A stretch of 56,141 nt of DNA, from positions 1 through 56,141 of the forward strand of contig MNUR01000083.1 of the NCBI GenBank assembly GCA_001871115.1, read 5' to 3'. Positions 44,287 to 56,141 of this stretch are shown here, in pieces. The first letter of the stretch is position 1. Each line of letters starts with the position of its first letter. This DNA is from Elusimicrobia bacterium CG1_02_56_21 (GTDB taxonomy: Bacteria; Elusimicrobiota; Elusimicrobia; Elusimicrobiales; UBA9959). The notes below the pieces were generated by a model, which was not told the origin of the DNA, did not search any database, and saw nothing but the letters and a program-made list of their open reading frames with translations. The translations under genes and the position numbers were made by a program.

Positions 44287-44388
44287 GGGAAGGGCGGCTT
44301 TATTTTATTGCTTTAAGTCGCTTCCCAGGCCTGTAAAACTTAACCCTGCTCATGATTTCTCCCGGTACCCGTACAGTTGCGCCTTTTG

Positions 44389-44394
44389 TATAAT
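44389..44394 (+). promoter_or_regulatory. -10 box of hypA (leaderless type)
   Basis: TATAAT preceded by TTG ends six bases before the hypA ATG at 44401; no Shine-Dalgarno sequence is present. Confidence 0.55.
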
Positions 44395-44400
44395 TTTCCT

Positions 44401-44805
44401 ATGCATGAATGGGCTTTAGCCGAATCCGTAATAAAGGCCGCGGTAGAGCACGCCGGGGCCGAAAAGATTAAAACGCTTAAAGAGGCCGGGGTGGTCTTCG
44501 GCGAGCTGCAGGCCCTAGATAAAGAGATCTTTATCTTCGCGCTTGAGGAATTGCGCAAGCAGTTCCCCGGAGCCAAAGCCTGCAGGTTCAGGATAATAAA
44601 AGAGCCGGCCGCTTTCCTCTGCAAGGCCTGCTCCCATAAGTTCCTTTTAAAGGGCCTGGAGAAGACTATGGACGAAGCTGAGTTCATCCATTTTGTCCCC
44701 GAGATGGCGCATACTTTTCTGAAATGTCCCAAATGCAAAAGTCCGGATTTTGAAATTGCCGCCGGGCGGGGCGTCAGCATCAGTTATATCAAGGGCGCTA
44801 AATGA
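44401..44805 (+). CDS. hypA: Hydrogenase nickel incorporation protein HypA
   Basis: The 134-residue metallochaperone begins MHEWALAESVI, with the nickel-binding MHE. It carries a structural zinc site, C-x2-C in CKACSHKF and CPKCKSPDF. It delivers nickel to the hydrogenase large subunit, here probably HydA encoded seven kilobases away. The upstream frame extends eight codons, but MHE must be N-terminal for nickel binding, so ATG at 44401 is chosen. TATAAT six bases upstream suggests a leaderless mRNA. The next gene overlaps by four bases. Confidence 0.93.
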   Translation: MHEWALAESVIKAAVEHAGAEKIKTLKEAGVVFGELQALDKEIFIFALEELRKQFPGAKACRFRIIKEPAAFLCKACSHKFLLKGLEKTMDEAEFIHFVPEMAHTFLKCPKCKSPDFEIAAGRGVSISYIKGAK

Positions 44806-45506
44806 AGATAGATCCCCGCCCCTCCGTAATAGAGGAGCGCCTTAAAAACGTCAAGCGCATTATTGCCGTGACCGGCTGGAAGGGCGGGATAGGCAAGAGC
44901 GTTACCGCCTGCTCGCTTGCGCTGCTGCTCGCGAAGAAAGGCTATAGGACCGGCCTGTTCGACCTGGATTTTGCCGGCGCTTCGGACCATATAATACTCG
45001 GCTCAAAGAATATTTTTCCCGGGGAGAAAAAGGGACTGGAGCCTCCTGTTCTGGCAGGCGTTAAATTTATGTCGGTGGTTTTCTTCTCGGAGAACAAGGC
45101 CGTCCCTTTGCGCGGGGCTAATGTTTCGGACGCTATAATAGAGCTGCTCGCTATAACGCAATGGGGGGAGCTGGACTTCCTGGTGCTGGACATGCCGCCC
45201 GGCATAAACGACGCCGCCCTGGACGTGATGCGCTTTGCGCGCAGGGCGGAAGTCCTGGCGGTTACCACGCCTTCGGTCATAGCCCGCTCGGTGCTTGACC
45301 GCTCACTGCTTCTTTACCGCTCCCTTAAAGCCCCGGTGCTGGGAGTAGTGGTGAATATGGCCCGCGGTGCGGCCTCAAAAGGTTCTTCGGCCCGCCTTCG
45401 CTTAGATCCGGGCCTGGAAGCGGCCCTAGGCCGGCCTGCCGCTCTGCTTAAAACAGCATTCTGCCGCGACCTTTCCGGCGCGCTTGAAATTCTTAAATTG
45501 AAATAA
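44802..45506 (+). CDS. Mrp/MinD-type P-loop ATPase, probable archaeal-type HypB
   Basis: The 234-residue ATPase has the deviant Walker A of MinD/Mrp/ParA proteins (GWKGGIGKSVTACSLALLL), DLDFAGASDHIILG, VLDMPPGINDAALDV and VTTPSVIARSVLDRSL. Classical HypB is a SIMIBI GTPase with a NKxD motif; that motif is not seen here. In Thermococcus the HypA partner is a Mrp/MinD-type ATPase. The four-base overlap with hypA makes the same role very likely here. Alternatively it is an Mrp Fe-S carrier, but the CxxC of Mrp proteins is not apparent. Confidence 0.8.
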   Translation: MKIDPRPSVIEERLKNVKRIIAVTGWKGGIGKSVTACSLALLLAKKGYRTGLFDLDFAGASDHIILGSKNIFPGEKKGLEPPVLAGVKFMSVVFFSENKAVPLRGANVSDAIIELLAITQWGELDFLVLDMPPGINDAALDVMRFARRAEVLAVTTPSVIARSVLDRSLLLYRSLKAPVLGVVVNMARGAASKGSSARLRLDPGLEAALGRPAALLKTAFCRDLSGALEILKLK

Positions 45507-45526: not shown

Positions 45527-47338
45527 TCAGGACTTTCCCGTCTGGTTGGGGATAGAAAAGAAGAAGGAAGTCCCTTTCCCCGGCCCGGACTCGAACCAGA
45601 TCTGCCCGCCGTAGTGCTCTACTATCTTTTTGCAGGAAGCCAGGCCGATACCGGCCCCCGGGGTTTCGTTGCCGTGGAGCCTGCCGAAAAGCTTGAAAAG
45701 CTTTCCGGCGTGCCTTTCCTCTATCCCGATGCCGTTGTCCCTGACGTGAAAGACCCACCCGCCTTCGCTCCGCTCAGCCCCTACGTGAATAAGCGGGGTT
45801 CCCCCGTTCGTGAATTTAACGGCATTGCTCAGCAGGTTCTGGAAGAGCCGCTCTATCTGGCAGCGGTCGGCCAGAATAACGGGCAGGTTCCCGCGCTCTA
45901 TGACCGCTCCGGCCGCGGAGATAGCGTCCCGGAGCATAGTCTCTACATAATCCAGCGCTTCGCCCGTTTCAACTTCTTCCAGGCGGCGGGCAGAGTTTAT
46001 TTTTGAATAATCCAGGAGATCCCGGACCAGGCCCCTCATCCGCGTTACGGCGTCGGTTATAAAGTTAACGTTCCTTTCAGCCTCCGGGCCCAGCACGGTC
46101 CTGTATTTGCTCTCAAGCAGCTGTATATAGCTTGAGACGGTGCGCAGGGGTTCCTGCAGGTCGTGGGAAGCCACGAACGCGAAGCGCTGCAGTTCCTCGT
46201 TGGAGCGGGCCAGTTCGGCCTCGTGCTTCTTGCGGAGAGTGATGTCCCGGACTACCGCAACTATACCGGAATTATTTCCTTCGGTGTCTTTAATAAAAGA
46301 GGCCGAAATGAGGACAGGGACCGTAATGCCGGGCCCGGCGGCCAGCGTGGCTTCATAGTCCCTGACCTCCCCGGTTTTTCTGAGTTTACCCAGCCAGCCG
46401 CCCGCTTCGCGGTCATCCCACGGAAAGAATCCCATTATCCCCTGACCTTCCAGCTTCCTGCTGCCGCGGTCGAGCAGGACCCTGGCGGACTTATTGACCT
46501 TCCCGATAATTCCGTGCAGGTCCGTTACTATCAGTGTATCGACTACATTGTCCACAATGGCGTCCAGGTAATTTTTAGAAACTATGGTTCCGGAAAGAGC
46601 GCTGGACATCTCGTTGAAGCTCTTTGCCAGGTCCCCGAACTCGTCTTTGGTAGACACCGGTATCGTGAAGCCGTAATCGCCCAGGCGGATGCGCTCGGTA
46701 CCGGAGATAAGCTTGTGTATAGGCCGGAGGGCCATCTCGGTAAGGAGGAAGGCGGCAACAAAAATAAGCAGGTAGACGACAGCCAGTATGGAGATTATGT
46801 TCCTGGCCATTTTATGCTCTATTGCTATCGAGTCTTTAAGGCTGAGGTCGATCAGCAGGGTTCCCAGTCTTTTTCCCTTATAGCCGGGCTCACGAAGGGC
46901 CAGTTCCTCGGCAGAGTCGGAGAGCGTCTTGATGACGGCCGTATAAACGCTTAAGTACCCTTTAGGGTTGTGCTCCTTTATTTGGTACTTACCGTCAACG
47001 GGGGAGTATTCTGCGGAATTGGCCTGGGACAGTTTTTCTCCCTTTCTCAGCACATTGGTATGGGCCAGGATAGTTCCGGAGTTATCAGCGAATCCTACTT
47101 GCCCGGCCTTGAGGTCTGTAGCTATTTCATACAGCAGCGGGAGGAGGTTCTGTTCGCTGGGGGCCTCAAAAGAGGCGATGTGCATTTCCACAAGGTGCCT
47201 GGCCGTTGTACCCGCCCTTTCGGCTGTTTCCGCGTGCAGGGTGCGGCAACCGGCGCGGCCGGCTAAATAATTTATCAATAAGCCGCTGAGCAGGAGGAGG
47301 GGGACGAGCAGGAGGAAAAGCTTTGCGCGGATCTTCAT
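45527..47338 (-). CDS. Sensor histidine kinase (periplasmic Cache-like, HAMP, PAS, HisKA, HATPase)
   Basis: The 603-residue membrane kinase starts at ATG 47338, which follows AAGGAG by four bases. One helix lies at residues 5-25, and a periplasmic sensor domain of about 150 residues, probably Cache-type (GQVGFADNSGTILAHTNVLRKG), follows. A second helix near 185-205 leads to HAMP, then a PAS domain (DLHGIIGKVNKSARVLL). HisKA has FVASHDLQEPLRTVSSYI, and HATPase has NAVKF, DNGIGIEERHAGKLFKLFGRLH and AGIGLASCKKIVEHYGG. The ASHDLQEPLR H-box is typical of kinases paired with Rcp1-like CheY regulators, and such a regulator is the first gene of this operon. The start overlaps the binding-protein gene by four bases. 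Confidence 0.92.
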   Translation of the reverse strand: MKIRAKLFLLLVPLLLLSGLLINYLAGRAGCRTLHAETAERAGTTARHLVEMHIASFEAPSEQNLLPLLYEIATDLKAGQVGFADNSGTILAHTNVLRKGEKLSQANSAEYSPVDGKYQIKEHNPKGYLSVYTAVIKTLSDSAEELALREPGYKGKRLGTLLIDLSLKDSIAIEHKMARNIISILAVVYLLIFVAAFLLTEMALRPIHKLISGTERIRLGDYGFTIPVSTKDEFGDLAKSFNEMSSALSGTIVSKNYLDAIVDNVVDTLIVTDLHGIIGKVNKSARVLLDRGSRKLEGQGIMGFFPWDDREAGGWLGKLRKTGEVRDYEATLAAGPGITVPVLISASFIKDTEGNNSGIVAVVRDITLRKKHEAELARSNEELQRFAFVASHDLQEPLRTVSSYIQLLESKYRTVLGPEAERNVNFITDAVTRMRGLVRDLLDYSKINSARRLEEVETGEALDYVETMLRDAISAAGAVIERGNLPVILADRCQIERLFQNLLSNAVKFTNGGTPLIHVGAERSEGGWVFHVRDNGIGIEERHAGKLFKLFGRLHGNETPGAGIGLASCKKIVEHYGGQIWFESGPGKGTSFFFSIPNQTGKS

Positions 47339-48231
47339 TCGGCTCCTTTGCCGGAAGGGAGCTTTATCTGAAGACCGCATCTGTTTATAAATTCCGGGTT
47401 GATAGTGGTTTCTGCGCTTTTTAGGTAGATCGTTCCGGGCTGCGTCTTCCCTGAAAGTATTTGTTGAAGGGCCGAGGCCGCAGTATTCCCTATTTCATTG
47501 AGATCGGGGGCAACTGCCCCCGCCGCCCCGAGGTCGGCTAAGCCGCCCGAGGGCGCGTAATAAGGCACTTTATTGGAGCAGGAGAACTGCGCAAGGACCT
47601 GGAGGGAGACCTTTGTAATAAGGGCCGGGTCAGGCAGCAGCCATATAGCGTCCGCTTTTCCGGACAAGGTCCGCAACTGGTCAGGCATTTCCGCGGCGCT
47701 AGTTAGCCCGACGGGAACTATTGCTACCCCGCGGAGCTCCGCGGCGGCGACCAACTCTGAAAGGTAAGTCTCACGCGCCGGCTCCTTAAAAAAAACCGCC
47801 AGCCGTTTGAGTCCGGGCTGCAATTTAAGGTAAGCATCAATAGCCAGCGCGGGATCCGGGCGCGATGAAATTCTTGTGAACGTGCCTTTAGGCCCGGCTG
47901 CGGTATAACCGGGGGCCAGGAGGTAGATCACTTTTATTTTTGCAGGATAGTCAAAATTAGCGGCCTTAGAGCCGAAGGCTACCACCGCCTTAAGGTCTCT
48001 GGGGAGTTGAGGTTTTTCTTTTGACAGGTCAAAAGCGGTAATCGGGCGGCCGAGTGCTTTCTGGAAAGAGAGGAAAGTGTGGAAATAGAGCCCTGAGCCC
48101 CTGGAAAGTACGGCCGCGGCTTCCTGTGCCGGGCAGAGGGAGGGCATGGATGAGAGCGCGAGGAACAGCAGCGGGAGGGCCGCGCGTGGGGCGGATATAT
48201 AGAGCTTTTTCCCTGCTTTATTGAGTACCAT
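47335..48231 (-). CDS. Periplasmic ABC-type substrate-binding protein (ABC_sub_bind family)
   Basis: The 298-residue protein has a signal peptide (about residues 1-36, PRAALPLLFLALSSMPSLCPA). A two-lobe binding-protein fold matching family PF04392 follows: VAFGSKAANFDYPAKIKVIYLLAPGY, LAVFFKEPARETYLSELVAAAELRGVAIV, DAIWLLPDPALITK and PYYAPSGGLADLGAAGAVAPD (cited in order). No ABC permease or ATPase is nearby. Instead it sits between a TonB receptor and a histidine kinase, overlapping the kinase by four bases, which suggests it presents a ligand to the kinase. Ligand unknown. Confidence 0.82.
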   Translation of the reverse strand: MVLNKAGKKLYISAPRAALPLLFLALSSMPSLCPAQEAAAVLSRGSGLYFHTFLSFQKALGRPITAFDLSKEKPQLPRDLKAVVAFGSKAANFDYPAKIKVIYLLAPGYTAAGPKGTFTRISSRPDPALAIDAYLKLQPGLKRLAVFFKEPARETYLSELVAAAELRGVAIVPVGLTSAAEMPDQLRTLSGKADAIWLLPDPALITKVSLQVLAQFSCSNKVPYYAPSGGLADLGAAGAVAPDLNEIGNTAASALQQILSGKTQPGTIYLKSAETTINPEFINRCGLQIKLPSGKGAE

Positions 48232-48254
48232 GCGAGTTAATTCACAACCCGGCT

Positions 48255-50222
48255 TTAAAATTTATATGAGAGCCTGGCCCGTACTTCTCTTGAGGCGGCT
48301 GGCAGCGGGGAATGCCCCCCGTTATACGGCTGTGCATAGGAATAGCCGGAGTCCAGAATGTCGTAGACTCCAAGACCCGCGTCCATTCTTCCTCCTATAA
48401 GATTCCTGCGTGAAAAATAAATATTGGCCAGGAGGGTATCTTCGGAGCCGCGGATTTGCCCGATGGCGGAGTAACCGCGCCTGCCGGAATAGTACGCCGC
48501 GGAAGGGTTGACGGTAAAATCCCGGGCGAGATTAAAGCTGGAGTTCAGAGTGAACTTGTGGGGGGCGAATCCCAGCATAGTGTCGCTGCCGGCGCCGGGA
48601 TTGTAAAAGCCGGCGCCGTCGTTGGTAGCCGCGTAATATGAATAGTTTAAATCGGCATAGCCCCATTCTTTTTTCAGGAGCACGGTCAGTTCTAAACCTT
48701 TTGTCCCGGATTCGCCGTAATTGCCGTAAGGCGCGGCAATGTTGAGCGGATAGTAAACTATAGGGTCTTTGATCGTTATTGTGAAGGCGTTTGCGGACAT
48801 GAATAAACTGTCAGTCATTTTATATCCTGCCTCAAATTCGATTACGGAAGTTTTCTCCGGCGCCAGGTCCGGGTTGGCTTCAAGATTGTCTATGCCGGGG
48901 GCGCGGAAGGATCTGCTGTAAATAGCTTTAAAATGCAAGCGGTCGTAAACCTTGGTCCAGGCCAGTCTTGGAGAAAAAGCCGAATCGAACTTTTCATGCT
49001 TGTCGTACCTGGCTCCTGCTGAAATTGTACCGAAGGGATATTCTGTTACTGCTTCTGCGAAGAAAGCCCTGTTGGAATAACGGATGGTCTTTTTTCCGTT
49101 CTTGAAGTACATCGGTATGGCGTCCCATAACAAAGGGGTAGTGTCTGCGAGTATGGCTGTATCCTGCGACAGCTCAATTCCGCCTGTTAATTTAAGACGC
49201 TCCGAGGGCGAATATGCGGCTGTGAGCGTTGCCTCGGTATAGTGGCTGCTTTTATCCCTGGGGTATTCAACGGGGTCGTATCCGTTAAAAGGCTCCTGGT
49301 AGCTGTATTTTAAGGAGGGGACCAGGGTGATATTTTCCGCAAGCCGGAAACTGCGGCTTGCTCCGGCGAAATAAGCGTCGTATTTCCTGGGGAGGGGCCG
49401 GGGCAGGATAGTGCTGTCGTAATGGTCCTGCTGGGTTGTGCGGTACAGGTCGGCTATCAGCCGCAGGTCCACTAGCCGGCTTTTTAGTCCTATGTTCAGG
49501 TTTCTCGAGCGTATCTTAGAGGCGTCTTTCATTGAATAGGACCCGCCGTTAAAATCCGCATAGCGCCTGTCGCTTCTGTTGAAATCCCCGTAATAAGCCT
49601 GCGCCGAGAGTTCTCCGCCCTCAAAGACCTTGCCGAAAGCGAGGTTCCCGGTCCGCCCTCCATAGGTTTTGGCCATATAGCCGTAAGAGAGGGCGGCTTC
49701 CGTTCCGTTTATGGATTTCGGGCTCCTGGTAGTTATCTTGATAACTCCGAGTTCCGCGAAGCCGCCGTAAATTGCCGAGCCCGGGCCTCTTATAACCTCT
49801 ATTTTTTCCACCTGCTCTATGGGGAACCTCATTATCTGGGAACTGCCGAAGAAGGGTTCATTATAGTGCTGGCCGTCCACCAGAAAAAGCACTTTCCCTT
49901 CCAGGCTCCAGTTTCCCCTGACGCCTACGCCAAGGCTGCTCTCCACATCTACACCGAAGTCCAGGCCGGGGATCAGTCTCAGAGCGTCGACCAGGTTCCT
50001 GGCTCCGCAATTCTGGATCTCTTCCCGGGTTATAACGGTAATTATGCCGGGGGCTTCCCGGAGGGGGGAATTCAGCCTGGAAGCTACCGCTGTCCTGATA
50101 TTAAGGATATCCTCAAGCGAGGCCCTTTCAAAATCAAAGAACTCCAGGTCGGCCGACGGGGCGGCCAGAGCTGTACTCCCTGCGAGCAGGATTGTAAACA
50201 GAATTAATAACGAGTATTTCAA
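48255..50222 (-). CDS. TonB-dependent outer-membrane receptor
   Basis: The 655-residue receptor has a signal peptide (LLILFTILLAGSTALAAP). The preplug segment FDFERASLEDILNIRTAVASRL is typical of small TonB receptors found with signalling genes, and the plug contains APGIITVITREEIQNCGARNLVDALRLIPGLD (cited in pieces). A 22-strand barrel ends in aromatic Phe (ARLSYKF). Start: the longest frame begins at 50426, but TTG at 50222 follows AGGGGGA by six bases and begins the signal peptide, so it is preferred. It is second in an operon after an Rcp1-like regulator and before the binding protein and kinase. Ligand unknown; no cobalamin riboswitch precedes it, so BtuB is unlikely. Confidence 0.88.
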   Translation of the reverse strand: MKYSLLILFTILLAGSTALAAPSADLEFFDFERASLEDILNIRTAVASRLNSPLREAPGIITVITREEIQNCGARNLVDALRLIPGLDFGVDVESSLGVGVRGNWSLEGKVLFLVDGQHYNEPFFGSSQIMRFPIEQVEKIEVIRGPGSAIYGGFAELGVIKITTRSPKSINGTEAALSYGYMAKTYGGRTGNLAFGKVFEGGELSAQAYYGDFNRSDRRYADFNGGSYSMKDASKIRSRNLNIGLKSRLVDLRLIADLYRTTQQDHYDSTILPRPLPRKYDAYFAGASRSFRLAENITLVPSLKYSYQEPFNGYDPVEYPRDKSSHYTEATLTAAYSPSERLKLTGGIELSQDTAILADTTPLLWDAIPMYFKNGKKTIRYSNRAFFAEAVTEYPFGTISAGARYDKHEKFDSAFSPRLAWTKVYDRLHFKAIYSRSFRAPGIDNLEANPDLAPEKTSVIEFEAGYKMTDSLFMSANAFTITIKDPIVYYPLNIAAPYGNYGESGTKGLELTVLLKKEWGYADLNYSYYAATNDGAGFYNPGAGSDTMLGFAPHKFTLNSSFNLARDFTVNPSAAYYSGRRGYSAIGQIRGSEDTLLANIYFSRRNLIGGRMDAGLGVYDILDSGYSYAQPYNGGHSPLPAASREVRARLSYKF

Positions 50223-50281
50223 CTGTCCCCCTGATGTCTTATGCTGAGATCCGGCCCCGGGCGCCTGCTTACCGGCCGCGG

Positions 50282-50734
50282 TTATTTCTTTTTCTGCGCT
50301 TTCTTGCCGCCGGTCTCCAGTTTTACCACCGAGAACCAGAATTCCTCTATGAGGTTTACTATGGTGATGAAGGAATTGAAATCCACCGGTTTGACTATAT
50401 AGCAGTTCGCGCCTTCGGCGTAGCACTTTGAGATCTCGGTTTCCTCTTCGGAGGAGGTCAGGACCACTACCGGTATGGATCTAAGCGCATTATCGGTTTT
50501 AATTTCGCGCAGAACCTCGCCGCCTGCGAGCTTGGGCAGGTTCAGGTCCAGCAGGACCAGGTCGGGCTTTTCGGCTTTCTGGTACGGAGTTTCTTTCTTA
50601 AGGTATTTAAGGGCTTTTTCTCCGTCGTCCAGGGCCGTCAGTTCTATTGAAAGCTTTGAGGCGGCCAGGGCCTGCCTTGTTAACTCGGTATCTCCCGGAT
50701 TGTCTTCAATGAGCAGTACCTGTATTTGTTTCAT
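50282..50734 (-). CDS. Rcp1-like single-domain response regulator
   Basis: The 150-residue receiver-only protein starts QIQVLLIEDNPGDTELTRQAL, has the phospho-acceptor Asp in LVLLDLNLPKLAGGEVL, VVLTSSEE with the conserved Ser/Thr, and the Lys in YIVKPVDFNSF. The NPGD and KPVDF segments define the Rcp1 subgroup that pairs with phytochrome-like kinases. It lacks an output domain, so it acts by protein contact. It heads the minus-strand operon with the TonB receptor, binding protein and cognate-type kinase. GAGGGA lies seven bases upstream of the ATG; a TATAAT near 50775 on the minus strand is a possible -10. Confidence 0.9.
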   Translation of the reverse strand: MKQIQVLLIEDNPGDTELTRQALAASKLSIELTALDDGEKALKYLKKETPYQKAEKPDLVLLDLNLPKLAGGEVLREIKTDNALRSIPVVVLTSSEEETEISKCYAEGANCYIVKPVDFNSFITIVNLIEEFWFSVVKLETGGKKAQKKK

Positions 50735-50853
50735 CGTAAGTCCCTCAAAGTTGTATTGCGCGCCGCGCGGTTTATATATTATACAATAAACAGCCGTGCC
50801 GGGAGCCTGCGCTCTGTTGACCGTCCGCCGGACTTATGGCAGAATATCTTTAA

Positions 50854-51951
50854 ATGAAGACCTTTTCTAAAACCCGCCGGCCCGGGCCGCCGGCTCCCGT
50901 CTCCGGAACGGCGCTCGGAGACAGCGGCCTGTACGCCCTTCTCTTCGGCCAGGCCCGCGATTCGATCATCGTGCTTGAGCTGCCTTCTTCAGGGGTTCCC
51001 GTAATAAGGGACGCCAACCCCGCGGCTCTCGCGCTCCACGGCTATTCAATGGGAGAACTCGTAGGAAAGCCGATTACGGTTCTCGGGGCTTCCCCCAACC
51101 GCAGCCGGTTTCCGGGCCGTAAAAGCAGCGGCAGTACTATTTTCGAAGTAAGGCAGAAACGCCGGGACGGAACGCTACTTGTAACCGAGGTGACGGCGCG
51201 CAATGTCAGGCAGGGAGCGGTCCTTTACGGCATCCTGATAGAGCGGGATATAACGCGCCGCACCGAGCTGGAGGAAGAGGGGCGGCAGGTGTCGGCCCGC
51301 ATCATGCTGGCCAGGGAAGCCGAAAAAAAGAGGCTCGCCGCCTCCCTGCACGACGCGATAGGCGCGATGCAGGTGGGAATGTCCTCGGCGCTGCTGCTGG
51401 TTGAAGCAGAGGTCCGGCAGGGGAAAAAAAGGCGGGCTTATGCCCGCATTGCCGAGGCCCGCGGACTTCTTAAGAAAGTTACTTCCGACCTTAAAGGGGC
51501 TTGTGTCGAGAGCTGGCCGCCCGGGCTTTCTGTTTCCGGCCTGGGCTCGGCGCTGCACGAACTCCTTACGCGGTTTTCCCTTCGCTCCGGTATAAGCGTG
51601 CACGAGGATAAGGCTTCCTACCGGGAATCCGGTACTGAGAGCCCGCTCGATATAATAATTTACCGGCTGGCGCAGGAAGCTCTCAATAACGCAGAAAAAC
51701 ATTCCGGCGCGGGGAACCTGTATTTTGAACTGGGAGTTGACAGCGGCTGGCTGAAACTTTCAGTGCGGGACGACGGACGGGGTTTTGACATGGGGAAAAC
51801 CAAAAATAAAAAAAACAGCCTGGGGCTTAAAATAATGGCCGAGGCAGCAGAGTCGGCGGGAGGCTATTTTTCTTTCTATTCCAAGCCCGGCGACGGGACC
51901 CTTGTTAAAGCCGAATTGCCCATCCCCAAAGGGCCGGGGACGCTCCTATGA
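50854..51951 (+). CDS. Soluble PAS sensor histidine kinase, NarX/HisKA_3 type
   Basis: The 365-residue kinase lacks membrane helices. A PAS domain covers about residues 30-150 (RDSIIVLELPSSGVPVIRDANPAALALHGYSMGELVGKPI). The HisKA_3 dimerisation helix AREAEKKRLAASLHDAIGAMQVGMSSALLLVEA holds the phospho-acceptor His. HATPase motifs are EALNNAEKHSGA and DDGRGFDM. It is paired with the NarL-family regulator gene that overlaps its stop by four bases. The start has no clear Shine-Dalgarno sequence. It is divergent from the Rcp1/TonB operon. Confidence 0.9.
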   Translation: MKTFSKTRRPGPPAPVSGTALGDSGLYALLFGQARDSIIVLELPSSGVPVIRDANPAALALHGYSMGELVGKPITVLGASPNRSRFPGRKSSGSTIFEVRQKRRDGTLLVTEVTARNVRQGAVLYGILIERDITRRTELEEEGRQVSARIMLAREAEKKRLAASLHDAIGAMQVGMSSALLLVEAEVRQGKKRRAYARIAEARGLLKKVTSDLKGACVESWPPGLSVSGLGSALHELLTRFSLRSGISVHEDKASYRESGTESPLDIIIYRLAQEALNNAEKHSGAGNLYFELGVDSGWLKLSVRDDGRGFDMGKTKNKKNSLGLKIMAEAAESAGGYFSFYSKPGDGTLVKAELPIPKGPGTLL

Positions 51952-52613
51952 CCTTAGCCCCGCGTATCCGGGTAATCATAGCCGACGACCATCCTCTGGT
52001 AATAGAGGGACTGAAAGCGGTCCTTAAGAAGACAGCCCCGGATATAGTAGTCTGCGGCGAGGCCGGCGACGGCCTGGGGGCCCTTGCCCTCGCGCGCCGT
52101 TGTCCTGCGGATATCTACGTGCTGGATATTTCCATGCCCGGCCTTAACGGCCTGGAGGCTATGGCGCGCCTGCTTATTAAGGACGCCAAAGCGCGGGTCA
52201 TAATGCTCAGTATGCATGATGACAAGCCCACAATAGAGAAAGCGCTGCGGGCCGGCGCGAAAGGGTACCTTGTAAAAGAAAGCGCGGCCGAAGAGATAGC
52301 GCGGGCGCTCCGCACTGTGCACCGGGGGCAGCGTTATCTAAGCCCTTCCGTTTCGGCTATGCTTGAAGCCGCCTGGCCCGGCCGTCCGCGGAAGGGGGCA
52401 AAAGACCGGGACTGGTCCCGGCTTACCGGCAAAGAAACGGAGATAGTGCGCCTGATAGCCCTCGGCCTGGGCAATAAGCAGATCGCGTCCAGGCTTTCTA
52501 TTTCCGGCAGTACGGTTTCGGTTCACCGGCGCAATATCTCCCGGAAACTGGACATCCATAAACAGACCGACCTGGTGCGCTACGCCATCCGCGAAGGTCT
52601 TTCCAGGCCGTAA
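51948..52613 (+). CDS. NarL/FixJ-family response regulator
   Basis: The 221-residue transcription factor has a receiver domain (IADDHPLVIEGLKAVL, phospho-Asp in YVLDISMPGLNG, MLSMHDDKPT, and the Lys in GYLVKESAAEEI). A C-terminal LuxR helix-turn-helix follows (LTGKETEIVRLIALGLGNKQIASRLSISGSTVSVHRRNI). The ATGA overlap with the PAS-kinase gene marks a two-component pair. An intrinsic terminator follows about 110 bases downstream. Targets are unknown. Confidence 0.93.
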   Translation: MTLAPRIRVIIADDHPLVIEGLKAVLKKTAPDIVVCGEAGDGLGALALARRCPADIYVLDISMPGLNGLEAMARLLIKDAKARVIMLSMHDDKPTIEKALRAGAKGYLVKESAAEEIARALRTVHRGQRYLSPSVSAMLEAAWPGRPRKGAKDRDWSRLTGKETEIVRLIALGLGNKQIASRLSISGSTVSVHRRNISRKLDIHKQTDLVRYAIREGLSRP

Positions 52614-52721
52614 ACGGCTGTTTTCCTATCTACCCTGTTCAGGGTATTTAAACTATCAATTGAATCAGGTAATCTTATATAGACATGGGCCCTCGCCTTT
52701 GGCGGCCAACCGCTGTCTTGT

Positions 52722-52759
52722 GGCGGCCGTCCCGGGGGGTGACGGCCGTCCCATTTTTA
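52722..52759 (+). terminator. Intrinsic terminator after the NarL-type regulator
   Basis: GGCGGCCGTC (from 52722) pairs with GACGGCCGTC (52741-52750), ten base pairs with one G-T, around a nine-base loop, then CCATTTTTAT. It lies between the regulator and the next kinase, which argues that the kinase starts downstream of it. Confidence 0.8.
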
Positions 52760-52785
52760 TTCTTAAGCGGGGATGGATTGACTTG

Positions 52786-54051
52786 ATGAAAGGCGGAACT
52801 GCGGTAATATGTCCGGAACTGGTCCGGAGGAATATGGCTATTGCAGCCTGCCTGGGCCTGGCCGGGGCCGGTCTCTGTCTTCTGCCCAGGTCCCCGTTCG
52901 GCTGCGTTTTCTCGTACTGCGCCCTGATTTCAGGGTTGCTCCATCTCCTGGCTTTTTCCGCTTTCCGTCGTTTTAAGAATAAACCTGCTTTCTTTATTTT
53001 CATAAGCTGGTTCAATGTGGGACTGCTGGCCGTCGCCGTCAGCGATACGGGCGGGATCTTCTCTCCTTTCGTTTTTCTTTTCTTCTGGGTTATGGTTTCC
53101 GAGGCGATCTACGGTATCAAGGACTCCTGGCTGCCTTTTTTTGCCGGGGCCTGCTACCTGGCGGCGGTATACGGAGACCTCCCGAAACTTATAGGCCGGC
53201 CTCACGGCAGTCCTGTCTTTAATTACGAAAGCGGCATTGCCGCTATAATAGTTTCCGGGATCGTCTGCGCGTTCATCCTTATGGCGGGGCTGAGGTCCAG
53301 GTATATAATAAGCGCGGTGCTGGCAAAGCTTGAAATGTCCCGTATGAAGCAGGAAGAACTTGGGAGAAAGTGCAGCGAGATGAGCCCCTATTCCCAGATA
53401 GGGAAGGCCGTACACCGTATAGCGCATGATCTGCGCACCCCGCTGGCTTCGGCCCTGGGCTATCTTGACTTTAAAATAACCAAAACCTCCGACCCGGACG
53501 ACCAGGAAATCCTGAAATATATACGTGAAAGTCTTGAGCAGATGTCTTCTATGATGACGCAGATAACCTGCTACGGCCGCCGCTCCGAACTAAAAAAAGA
53601 GCGGTTCTGCCTTAAGACGCTCCTGGCCGGGATTAAAACCATCCTGGCTTTTCACCCCTCGGCGGCCGGCGTTCAGTTTGTTTCAGCGTCGCCGGAAGGA
53701 GATGTATATGTGGAGCTGCCGAGGTACGAACTGCAGCTGGCTTTATTCAATGTAATAAAGAATTCTCTGGAAGCGGTTGCCGAGCGGGCTGAAAAAAAGG
53801 TAAATATTATTCTGAGGACTACTGTCAGCCACGCGGAGATAGAGGTTTCCGACTCCGGCCCGGGCCTTAAGGAGCAAATACTGGAAGCGGTTGCCCGCGG
53901 AGGGGAGACAACGAAGCCCGACGGAACCGGGGTAGGACTCGCTATTGCGAGTGATTTTATACATGAGCAGGGCGGAACTTTTGAAATAGGGAACTCTCCG
54001 GACTCCGGGGCCCTCGTCAGGATAAGACTGCCCCTGCACTCCGCTGCTTAG
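52786..54051 (+). CDS. Membrane sensor histidine kinase
   Basis: The kinase of about 421 residues has five or six helices (residues 15-165 of this reading), a coiled-coil linker, and a DHp domain with His in HRIAHDLRTPLASALGYLDF. A HATPase domain (NVIKNSLEAVAERA, SDSGPGLKEQI, GTGVGLAIASDFIHEQGG) follows. The frame is open from a TTG at 52660, but that region contains the terminator at 52722-52759, so the first ATG after it (52786) is preferred; TTG 52783 is also possible. The membrane segment GGIFSPFVFLFFWVMVSEAIYG recurs in the next kinase. No cognate regulator is adjacent. Confidence 0.85.
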   Translation: MKGGTAVICPELVRRNMAIAACLGLAGAGLCLLPRSPFGCVFSYCALISGLLHLLAFSAFRRFKNKPAFFIFISWFNVGLLAVAVSDTGGIFSPFVFLFFWVMVSEAIYGIKDSWLPFFAGACYLAAVYGDLPKLIGRPHGSPVFNYESGIAAIIVSGIVCAFILMAGLRSRYIISAVLAKLEMSRMKQEELGRKCSEMSPYSQIGKAVHRIAHDLRTPLASALGYLDFKITKTSDPDDQEILKYIRESLEQMSSMMTQITCYGRRSELKKERFCLKTLLAGIKTILAFHPSAAGVQFVSASPEGDVYVELPRYELQLALFNVIKNSLEAVAERAEKKVNIILRTTVSHAEIEVSDSGPGLKEQILEAVARGGETTKPDGTGVGLAIASDFIHEQGGTFEIGNSPDSGALVRIRLPLHSAA

Positions 54052-54067
54052 CACCCTGCGCATTCTT

Positions 54068-55339
54068 ATGAGCCATAGCGACTACGGATTTAAGGTTAAA
54101 AAGCTGATGAAGCAGCAGGCCCTGCTTTCCGGTCTTGGGTCTTTATTTTCAGGGTTTATTTATTTCGCGGTGGATTTCCCTTTCCCGGAGATCATCGCCG
54201 GCATAGCCTTCCTGGCAGCGGCCTGCTATTTCGCCTACTATTTCTTTTTCGATCTTATCTGCGTTACCTGCCATGAAAGCGCCGGCGCCGCGCTGAGCGT
54301 TATGGGGATATTGGCTCTTACGCTGGTGGTGCATTTCAGCGGCGGGATAGTTTCGCCTTTTATATTTTTCTATTTCACCATACTTATCCTGGAAGCCCTC
54401 TATGGCCTCAGGAACCCTTATACACTGCCTACGGCGCTGGGCGGCTATTTGCTGGTAGTGGCCGGGCAGTTCTCGGGCTTCCTGGAAAATAATAATCTCT
54501 GGGCGCTGGAGTTCTACAGCAGCCCTACCGCCACTTTTCTGATGGCGGGCGTCACTGCCTTTAATATCGGGCTTACCCGCCGCCTGACCAGGCTGATAGT
54601 TAATAATCTGCGCACCAGCCTGGAGCAGGAAGCCGGCGAGAAAGAAGCCCTGCTGCGGAAGTTCTCAGAGCTCAATTCTACGCTCCAGATAGGCGTGCTG
54701 GCCCACCGTATAGCGCACGACCTGCGCGGGCCCATAGCCTGCATCTCGGGATATATACAGATAGAAATGACCAGGGAGAAGAGCCCGGAGGACCGTGAGG
54801 TTCTCAAAGACCTGGATGAAACTGTAACAGCCATGTCCGAGTCCCTGTTCGGGATCACCCGCTTCGGCAAGGCCGGCGGGCCCACCAGCGAAAAGATAGT
54901 GATAAAAGATTTTATGCGCGACCTGCTGGCTATAGCGACTTATTCGCCGCTGGCAAAGGGAGTGAAATTTGAGACCGTTTGCCCCGGGACCCTGAAGGCC
55001 AGCGTTAACGCTTCCCGCGCGGACCTGCAGCAGGCTTATTTTAATATTATCAAGAACGCCGTAGAGGCCGTGAGCGATAATACTGACGAGAAAAAAATAC
55101 TGATAGAGATAGCCCAGGAAGGGAAGGATGTGAAAGTTTCGGTTTCCGATAACGGCCCCGGTATCTCCGAGGACGTGCTTAAGACGGTATTTAGAAAATC
55201 CATAACTACCAAAAAAGAAGGCACCGGGGTAGGTTTGCTGATAACCCGCGACCTTCTGGTCCGCAACAGCGGGGAAATAAAGCTGCACAACCGCAAAGAA
55301 GGCGGACTGGCCGTAGTAACCTGCCTGACCGCTGCCTGA
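54068..55339 (+). CDS. Membrane sensor histidine kinase, paralogue of the preceding
   Basis: The 423-residue kinase has the same plan as its upstream neighbour: five or six helices in the first 175 residues, with GGIVSPFIFFYFTILILEALYG matching the neighbour's GGIFSPF segment. A coiled-coil and DHp follow, with phospho-acceptor His in HRIAHDLRGPIACISGYI. HATPase motifs are NIIKNAVEAVSDNT, SDNGPGISED and GTGVGLLITRDLLVRNSG. It begins 16 bases after the preceding gene, without a clear Shine-Dalgarno sequence, so a duplicated co-transcribed pair is likely. No regulator gene is adjacent. Confidence 0.88.
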   Translation: MSHSDYGFKVKKLMKQQALLSGLGSLFSGFIYFAVDFPFPEIIAGIAFLAAACYFAYYFFFDLICVTCHESAGAALSVMGILALTLVVHFSGGIVSPFIFFYFTILILEALYGLRNPYTLPTALGGYLLVVAGQFSGFLENNNLWALEFYSSPTATFLMAGVTAFNIGLTRRLTRLIVNNLRTSLEQEAGEKEALLRKFSELNSTLQIGVLAHRIAHDLRGPIACISGYIQIEMTREKSPEDREVLKDLDETVTAMSESLFGITRFGKAGGPTSEKIVIKDFMRDLLAIATYSPLAKGVKFETVCPGTLKASVNASRADLQQAYFNIIKNAVEAVSDNTDEKKILIEIAQEGKDVKVSVSDNGPGISEDVLKTVFRKSITTKKEGTGVGLLITRDLLVRNSGEIKLHNRKEGGLAVVTCLTAA

Positions 55340-55572: not shown

Positions 55573-56141
55573 ATGAAACTTAATATTAAGTCTTTTCCGC
55601 TGCTCTGTGCCTTAACTCTATTCCTCCTCTGGTCCGCCCCGGGCCCCGCGCAGGCCAAGCGCCTTGTTTCGCTCATGCCTTCGTATACGGAGATAGTTTT
55701 TGAACTGGGGGCGGGCAATGACCTGGTGGGGGTTTCTAATTTCTGCAACTGGCCTCCGGAAGCGGAGAAGATTGAGAAGACCGGGGATTATCTGCGTCCG
55801 AATATTGAAAAGATCTATTCACTCAAGCCCGATACCGTGTTCTCCGGAGCCTGGGCCGGTCCCTCTACCACAAAGCAGCTTTCTTCGATGGGGATTAAAG
55901 TGGTTTCCCTGCCGGAAGAGAAAAGCGCGGCCGATATCTTTGCCACGGTCAGGCTTATAGCTTCGGAACTCGGGCTTAAACGCAGGGGCGAGGTCCTTAT
56001 CCGCAAACTTTCCGCCCTAATGCCCGGAAAATTCCCGGAGAAACCGCTGAAAGTTTACCTGGAGGCTGACGCGGGAGGATGGACCGCAGGGGGCCAGTCT
56101 TTCCTTACGGACGCCGTGCGGCTGGCAGGCGGCAGGAATAT
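55573..56141 (+). CDS. btuF: Cobalamin ABC transporter substrate-binding protein, BtuF-like (3' end outside window)
   Basis: About 189 residues are visible before the window ends. A signal peptide (about residues 1-28, FPLLCALTLFLLWSAPGPAQA) is followed by the periplasmic binding-protein fold of class III. Segments are RLVSLMPSYTEIVFELGAGNDLVGVSNFCNWP, then GDYLRPNIEKIYSLKPDTVFSG and VYLEADAGGWTAGGQSFLTDAVRLAGG, cited in pieces. These match BtuF/FecB-type vitamin B12 binders. The cobalamin riboswitch directly upstream supports B12. The ATG has GGAGG 14 bases upstream, a long spacing. The rest of the transporter presumably lies beyond the window. Confidence 0.9.
   Translation, partial: MKLNIKSFPLLCALTLFLLWSAPGPAQAKRLVSLMPSYTEIVFELGAGNDLVGVSNFCNWPPEAEKIEKTGDYLRPNIEKIYSLKPDTVFSGAWAGPSTTKQLSSMGIKVVSLPEEKSAADIFATVRLIASELGLKRRGEVLIRKLSALMPGKFPEKPLKVYLEADAGGWTAGGQSFLTDAVRLAGGRN

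Follow-up and report, generated by a model that had tools for sequence, protein, structure and literature searches.

The usual explanation of signalling through TonB-dependent receptors is the FecA-type route of sigma and anti-sigma factors, and a handful of sensor kinases are known to be fed by a binding protein. Among the latter, LuxP-LuxQ, TorT-TorS and XylFII-LytS have been reviewed, and many more are suspected to have gone unrecognised (PMC6321045); the sensor domains of LuxQ are of the PDC/Cache type (PMC8534201). In Vibrio, chitin is sensed by means of a chitoporin, a chitooligosaccharide-binding protein and ChiS (PMC10667598), which, going by the title of a reference cited in that paper, is a DNA-binding hybrid kinase, unlike the kinase described here.

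Here we describe a cassette from Elusimicrobia bacterium CG1_02_56_21 (GCA_001871115.1, contig MNUR01000083.1), positions 1-56,141 of whose forward strand form the whole stretch analysed (56,141 nucleotides, hereafter the window). It encodes a TonB-dependent receptor (TBDR), a periplasmic binding protein of family PF04392 (SBP), a histidine kinase (HK) and a receiver-only response regulator (RR), and it is probable that the permease-less SBP couples the TonB receptor to the kinase in a trans-envelope sensory cassette. In its working it would stand closest to LuxPQ, TorTS and XylFII-LytS, in which a kinase's sensor domain reads a binding protein outside the cytoplasm, as the cassette kinase probably does too. 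What it adds to these is a dedicated TonB receptor encoded in the cassette, an SBP of PF04392, a single Cache domain, and a receiver-only regulator beside a kinase core of phytochrome type; the receptor, the family of the SBP and interchangeable outputs would be its new elements. Outer-membrane entry, a periplasmic SBP that also controls signal transduction and a sensor kinase recall chitin sensing in Vibrio, where, however, a porin takes the place of the TonB receptor and the SBP also serves uptake. The cassette SBP has its family and fold in common with PF04392 ABC binding proteins of the TrpX/CD0873 type (3lft, 6hni/6hnj), but it is partnered with a TBDR and a kinase, and no ABC permease or ATPase lies alongside. 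The nearest families to both the kinase core and the regulator are those of phytochrome signalling, as in Cph1-Rcp1, whereas the HK, unlike Cph1, is a membrane kinase with a periplasmic Cache sensor and without chromophore domains. An outer-membrane TonB receptor tied to signalling also recalls the FecA/FpvA transducers, from which the cassette differs in that its receptor has no N-terminal signalling domain and a kinase replaces the anti-sigma/ECF sigma pair. No description of the receptor-SBP-kinase combination was found in the titles and abstracts of the open-licence literature searched. A recurrent permease-less cassette of this kind would offer a general signal route across both membranes, testable in culturable Geobacteraceae, and if it is true, the routine label "ABC transporter substrate-binding protein" would need correcting for a whole PF04392 subfamily.

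The locus and its proteins

Positions 45527-50734 of the window hold, on the minus strand, exactly four genes in the order RR, TBDR, SBP, HK (open reading frame list and Pfam), and the interval fits them to the base: the regulator begins at 50734 and the kinase ends at 45527. The original prediction had named these four families, a Rcp1-like regulator, a TonB receptor, a binding protein and a Cache kinase, in an operon devoid of an ABC permease or ATPase; all four are in place, and in the window annotation neither gene of an ABC importer occurs inside the cassette or next to it. The features are as follows.

50282..50734, minus strand: receiver-only response regulator (RR) of Rcp1/RcpA type, 150 aa (PF00072, PDB relatives)
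48255..50222, minus strand: TonB-dependent receptor (TBDR), about 655 aa, from a TTG start chosen by us (Plug PF07715, weak beta-barrel match)
47335..48231, minus strand: PF04392 periplasmic binding protein (SBP) with signal peptide (Pfam, AlphaFold model)
45527..47338, minus strand: membrane histidine kinase (HK), 603 aa, with periplasmic single Cache, HAMP, PAS, phytochrome-type HisKA and HATPase (Pfam and predicted fold)
50735..50853, no strand: divergent promoter region common to the RR cassette and the HK2/LuxR pair (nine orthologous loci compared)
50854..51951, plus strand: divergent soluble PAS histidine kinase HK2 (PAS_9 and HATPase)
51948..52613, plus strand: LuxR/NarL-type response regulator, pair partner of HK2 (PF00072 and GerE)

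At its other end the cassette adjoins a HypA and Mrp/NUBPL-like ATPase gene pair (window 44377-45506), as do the cassettes at loci L054, L078 and L083.

The open reading frame list opens the TBDR at 50426, where it would overlap the RR. The TTG at 50222, 59 bases past the RR stop, is the likelier start, since an AGGGGG ribosome-binding site precedes it and a signal peptide follows, with the plug beginning about 30 residues after that peptide. Pfam gives the plug (71.7 bits) and barrel alone, with no N-terminal signalling (STN) domain, and a FecA-type transducer was rejected on that ground. With plug and beta-barrel in the protein, and with TonB and ExbD found by genome search as one copy each, side by side, the TBDR has the marks of a TonB-dependent receptor. 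Its nearest NCBIfam family is TonB-B12; a BtuB-like receptor for vitamin B12 was rejected, as the match reaches 112.9 bits against a cut-off of 599.7 and the cassette has no cobalamin riboswitch. The cobalamin riboswitch of the window (Rfam RF00174, 55349-55458, plus strand) precedes another gene at 55574-56141, clipped by the contig end, whose translation by eye resembles a BtuF-type binding protein.

HAMP, PAS, HisKA and HATPase of the HK all exceed their Pfam cut-offs, while Pfam matches no Cache domain in the window protein. A model of the periplasmic part (AF2 with 29 relatives, pLDDT 82) nevertheless matches in Foldseek the single-Cache/PDC sensors DcuS, CitA, DctB and WalK, citrate- and succinate-bound sensors among them, and Pfam names sCache_3_2 or sCache_4 in relatives, so that the predicted Cache kinase is borne out by fold and by family. 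The phytochrome-type H-box read from the sequence also holds, because the best PDB relatives of the kinase core are 8f71 and bacteriophytochromes. As for the regulator, it is indeed Rcp1-like: receiver-only (PF00072, 77.5 bits), with 5te9 and the phytochrome regulators RcpA (1k68) and Rcp1 (1i3c) as best PDB relatives, and with the E10-D11 acid pocket, the phospho-acceptor D63, T93 and K115 invariant in 17 relatives. Since a phytochrome-type core thus stands beside an RcpA/Rcp1-like receiver that keeps its catalytic residues, HK and RR are plausibly a cognate pair.

The SBP matches PF04392 at 43.9 bits (cut-off 25.9) and carries a signal peptide, and by eye no clear lipobox is seen. Its AlphaFold model (pLDDT 91) finds the Trp-bound SBP 3lft and CD0873 (6hni/6hnj) as best folds, in agreement with a profile search. 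From the fold, a small molecule resembling an aromatic amino acid is weakly suggested as ligand; the neighbours of the class II and class III loci described below (a set with a FAD oxidoreductase, peptidases, Mn efflux, endonuclease I) gave no consistent answer.

Recurrence within and beyond the genus

PF04392 is carried by 27 of the 32 genomes of the genus, and 29 further genomes from the same family and order all lack it. The loci of the genus were fetched and annotated, yielding 51 SBPs, and they fall into three classes: class I, the type of the window, runs RR, TBDR, SBP, HK and is transcribed divergently from a PAS kinase/LuxR regulator pair; in class II the order is TBDR, SBP, HK, RR, and a GAF protein often comes next; class III has TBDR and SBP without a kinase. 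The window genome has one locus of each (L033 being its class II and L032 its class III). A TBDR lies directly upstream of the SBP in 47/51 (the other four being explained by contig ends or a merged frame), a HK directly downstream in 32/51, and no permease occurs among the 51 loci. The survey of gene order that the original prediction had proposed hence finds its co-occurrence recurring, and the four-gene arrangement is far beyond chance. As a general unit, though, the four-gene set gives way: it recurs as class I, while about one third of the SBPs of the genus follow a TBDR with no kinase nearby, for which reason the invariant core is the TBDR-SBP pair and the SBP may have another job. Because class III pairs are without a kinase, some of them may have a role in uptake or serve a distant kinase.

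Of the class III loci L063-L081, one was scanned, L070, where an M14 zinc carboxypeptidase gene neighbours that of the receptor and endonuclease I genes lie to either side. An M29 peptidase is found at L032, and a peptidyl-arginine-deiminase-like gene with argininosuccinate synthase at L064.

That TBDR-SBP is the most conserved pair would also suit a reading in which the SBP serves the TBDR in the periplasm as a lid, an acceptor or a gate, and what the kinase senses is the receptor's state instead of the ligand. At L043 and at L045, one HK-RR is preceded by two TBDR-SBP pairs that differ from each other, and SBP divergence tracks that of the TBDR (partial r 0.43 over 25 loci, kinase-core distances removed). 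We regard this reading as improbable: the SBP retains a two-lobed binding fold close to that of Trp-bound 3lft, and the fusions of PF04392 domains to kinases, described below, do not include a TBDR. The divergence of the SBP likewise tracks that of the HK sensor (partial r 0.33, same loci and correction; within class II alone, 0.35 for SBP-TBDR and 0.34 for SBP-HK sensor). Partial Mantel tests are lenient: their correlations look more significant than they are and stem in part from shared ancestry, so that the correlated divergence is no more than supporting evidence for coupling.

Outside the genus, 84,980 species genomes were scanned and the hits annotated with HMMs; the scan was seeded on one conserved motif, and therefore underestimates the spread and cannot argue for conservation of that motif. 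The TBDR/SBP/HK trio was found in Nitrospirota, Geobacteraceae and Eisenbacteria, sometimes rearranged; in some Oxalobacteraceae and one gammaproteobacterium, SBP-HK pairs have a TBDR in their vicinity. In Geobacteraceae, where the three genes are colinear or divergent, the SBPs of the TBDR-linked subfamily have a TBDR within 6 kb in 22/22 cases and a HK within 6 kb in 20/22, and transporter-type PF04392 proteins of the same family of bacteria adjoin a permease (L185, L186). In a quick SBP tree of unknown root, a well-supported branch sets all TBDR-linked SBPs apart from the transporter-type proteins, whose side also includes several proteins of unknown context and several from SBP-SBP-HK arrangements. 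The outputs differ among loci (Rcp1-like regulator, sigma-54 regulator, hybrid with GGDEF-EAL), whereas the input of TBDR, SBP and membrane HK is constant. Taken as a whole, this suggests a widespread sensory system with close versions in several unrelated bacterial groups. The broader proposal that the PF04392 subfamily is the non-ABC periplasmic link of a three-protein TonB receptor-SBP-kinase sensory system with interchangeable cytoplasmic outputs, sensing ligands too scarce or bulky for porins across Elusimicrobiota, Nitrospirota, Geobacteraceae, Eisenbacteria and Proteobacteria, is one that we put forward tentatively. That the genes are neighbours by chance or local co-regulation, with HK-RR and TBDR-SBP pairs working separately, is the least probable of the readings considered; class III pairs without kinases do exist, yet the set recurs across several phyla in different gene orders, with overlapping frames and with fusions.

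In Oxalobacteraceae, loci L147, L150, L153 and L154 have two tandem SBPs before a large hybrid kinase, which at L150 carries HPt, GGDEF and EAL domains. A plasmid search with the SBP gave no match.

The permease question and coupling to the kinase

Transporter-type PF04392 proteins are partnered by permeases of family PF02653 (BPD_transp_2), which is also the family next to those of Geobacteraceae. PF02653, the sole inner-membrane transporter family searched, has no match in any of the ten genomes with the orthologous cassette, namely the window genome, about 94% complete, and nine others. The search itself works, because six congeners and 12 of the 14 control genomes give matches; PF02653 is present in all non-Elusimicrobia genomes searched and hence uninformative there. 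The original prediction was to fall if the binding protein served a distant permease, and for the class I carriers no such partner of this family came to light. A TrpXYZ-type ABC importer was rejected, BPD_transp_2 being missing from both locus and genome. As far as PF02653 goes, the SBP would be dedicated to signalling, without a cognate permease.

It is unlikely that the genes form an uptake operon with its own regulator, in which TBDR and SBP feed an unlinked transporter outside PF02653 and the Cache domain of the HK senses the same or another molecule directly and controls expression. Many TBDR-SBP pairs have no kinase, some lying by peptidase genes (M14, M29) as in nutrient systems, and Cache domains often bind small ligands directly, as the citrate- and succinate-bound folds matched here recall; the HK Cache domain could bind a ligand of its own. 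Against uptake, no transporter gene was seen recurring beside TBDR-SBP pairs and PF02653 is absent, and two further features of the genes suggest that the SBP acts on the kinase. The SBP frame shares exactly 4 bp with that of the HK in 9/9 orthologous loci (ATGA in the window), and PF04392-histidine kinase fusions exist, five in Geobacteraceae at or above the family cut-off and one, a weak match, in the genus. As in systems of the LuxPQ/TorTS kind, the SBP gene of the window adjoins that of a membrane kinase with a periplasmic sensor domain. Two other candidate fusions were rejected: the long frame called at L034 is a peptidase S41, and the PF04392 and dCache protein of L035 (4999-7743, minus strand) has no kinase domain by Pfam.

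The sensory relay, largely as in the original prediction, is supported at the level of genomics; the two different TBDR-SBP pairs before one HK-RR and the correlated divergence also speak for it. It would run as follows. The TBDR, powered by the single TonB-ExbD locus, would let a bulky or scarce ligand through to the periplasm, where the soluble PF04392 SBP, with a binding fold as modelled and no ABC permease, would capture it. Loaded or empty, the SBP would then dock on the single-Cache domain of the HK, presumably made from the same message by translational coupling, and switch the kinase. Judging by family, the phytochrome-type core would phosphorylate the Rcp1-type RR, which would act by binding another protein.

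Divergent neighbours and promoter region

HK2 and the LuxR/NarL regulator are kept beside seven other class I cassettes among the fetched loci of the genus. In the shared intergenic region, a TTGTATAAT box precedes the RR in 9/9 orthologous loci, and a GATATTCTGGCATAA-like box, or a near variant, precedes HK2 in all nine. The LuxR/NarL regulator is a candidate transcriptional output, and we conjecture that the HK2/LuxR pair is the likeliest route from the cassette to transcription. The conserved box before HK2 lies close to its ATG in the window and at L051, L054, L060, L062, L073, L078, L083 and L089, so near that the HK2 mRNA may have almost no leader. Further along, at 52660-55339, the window holds two membrane histidine kinases in a row, alike in make-up and without a receiver gene of their own.
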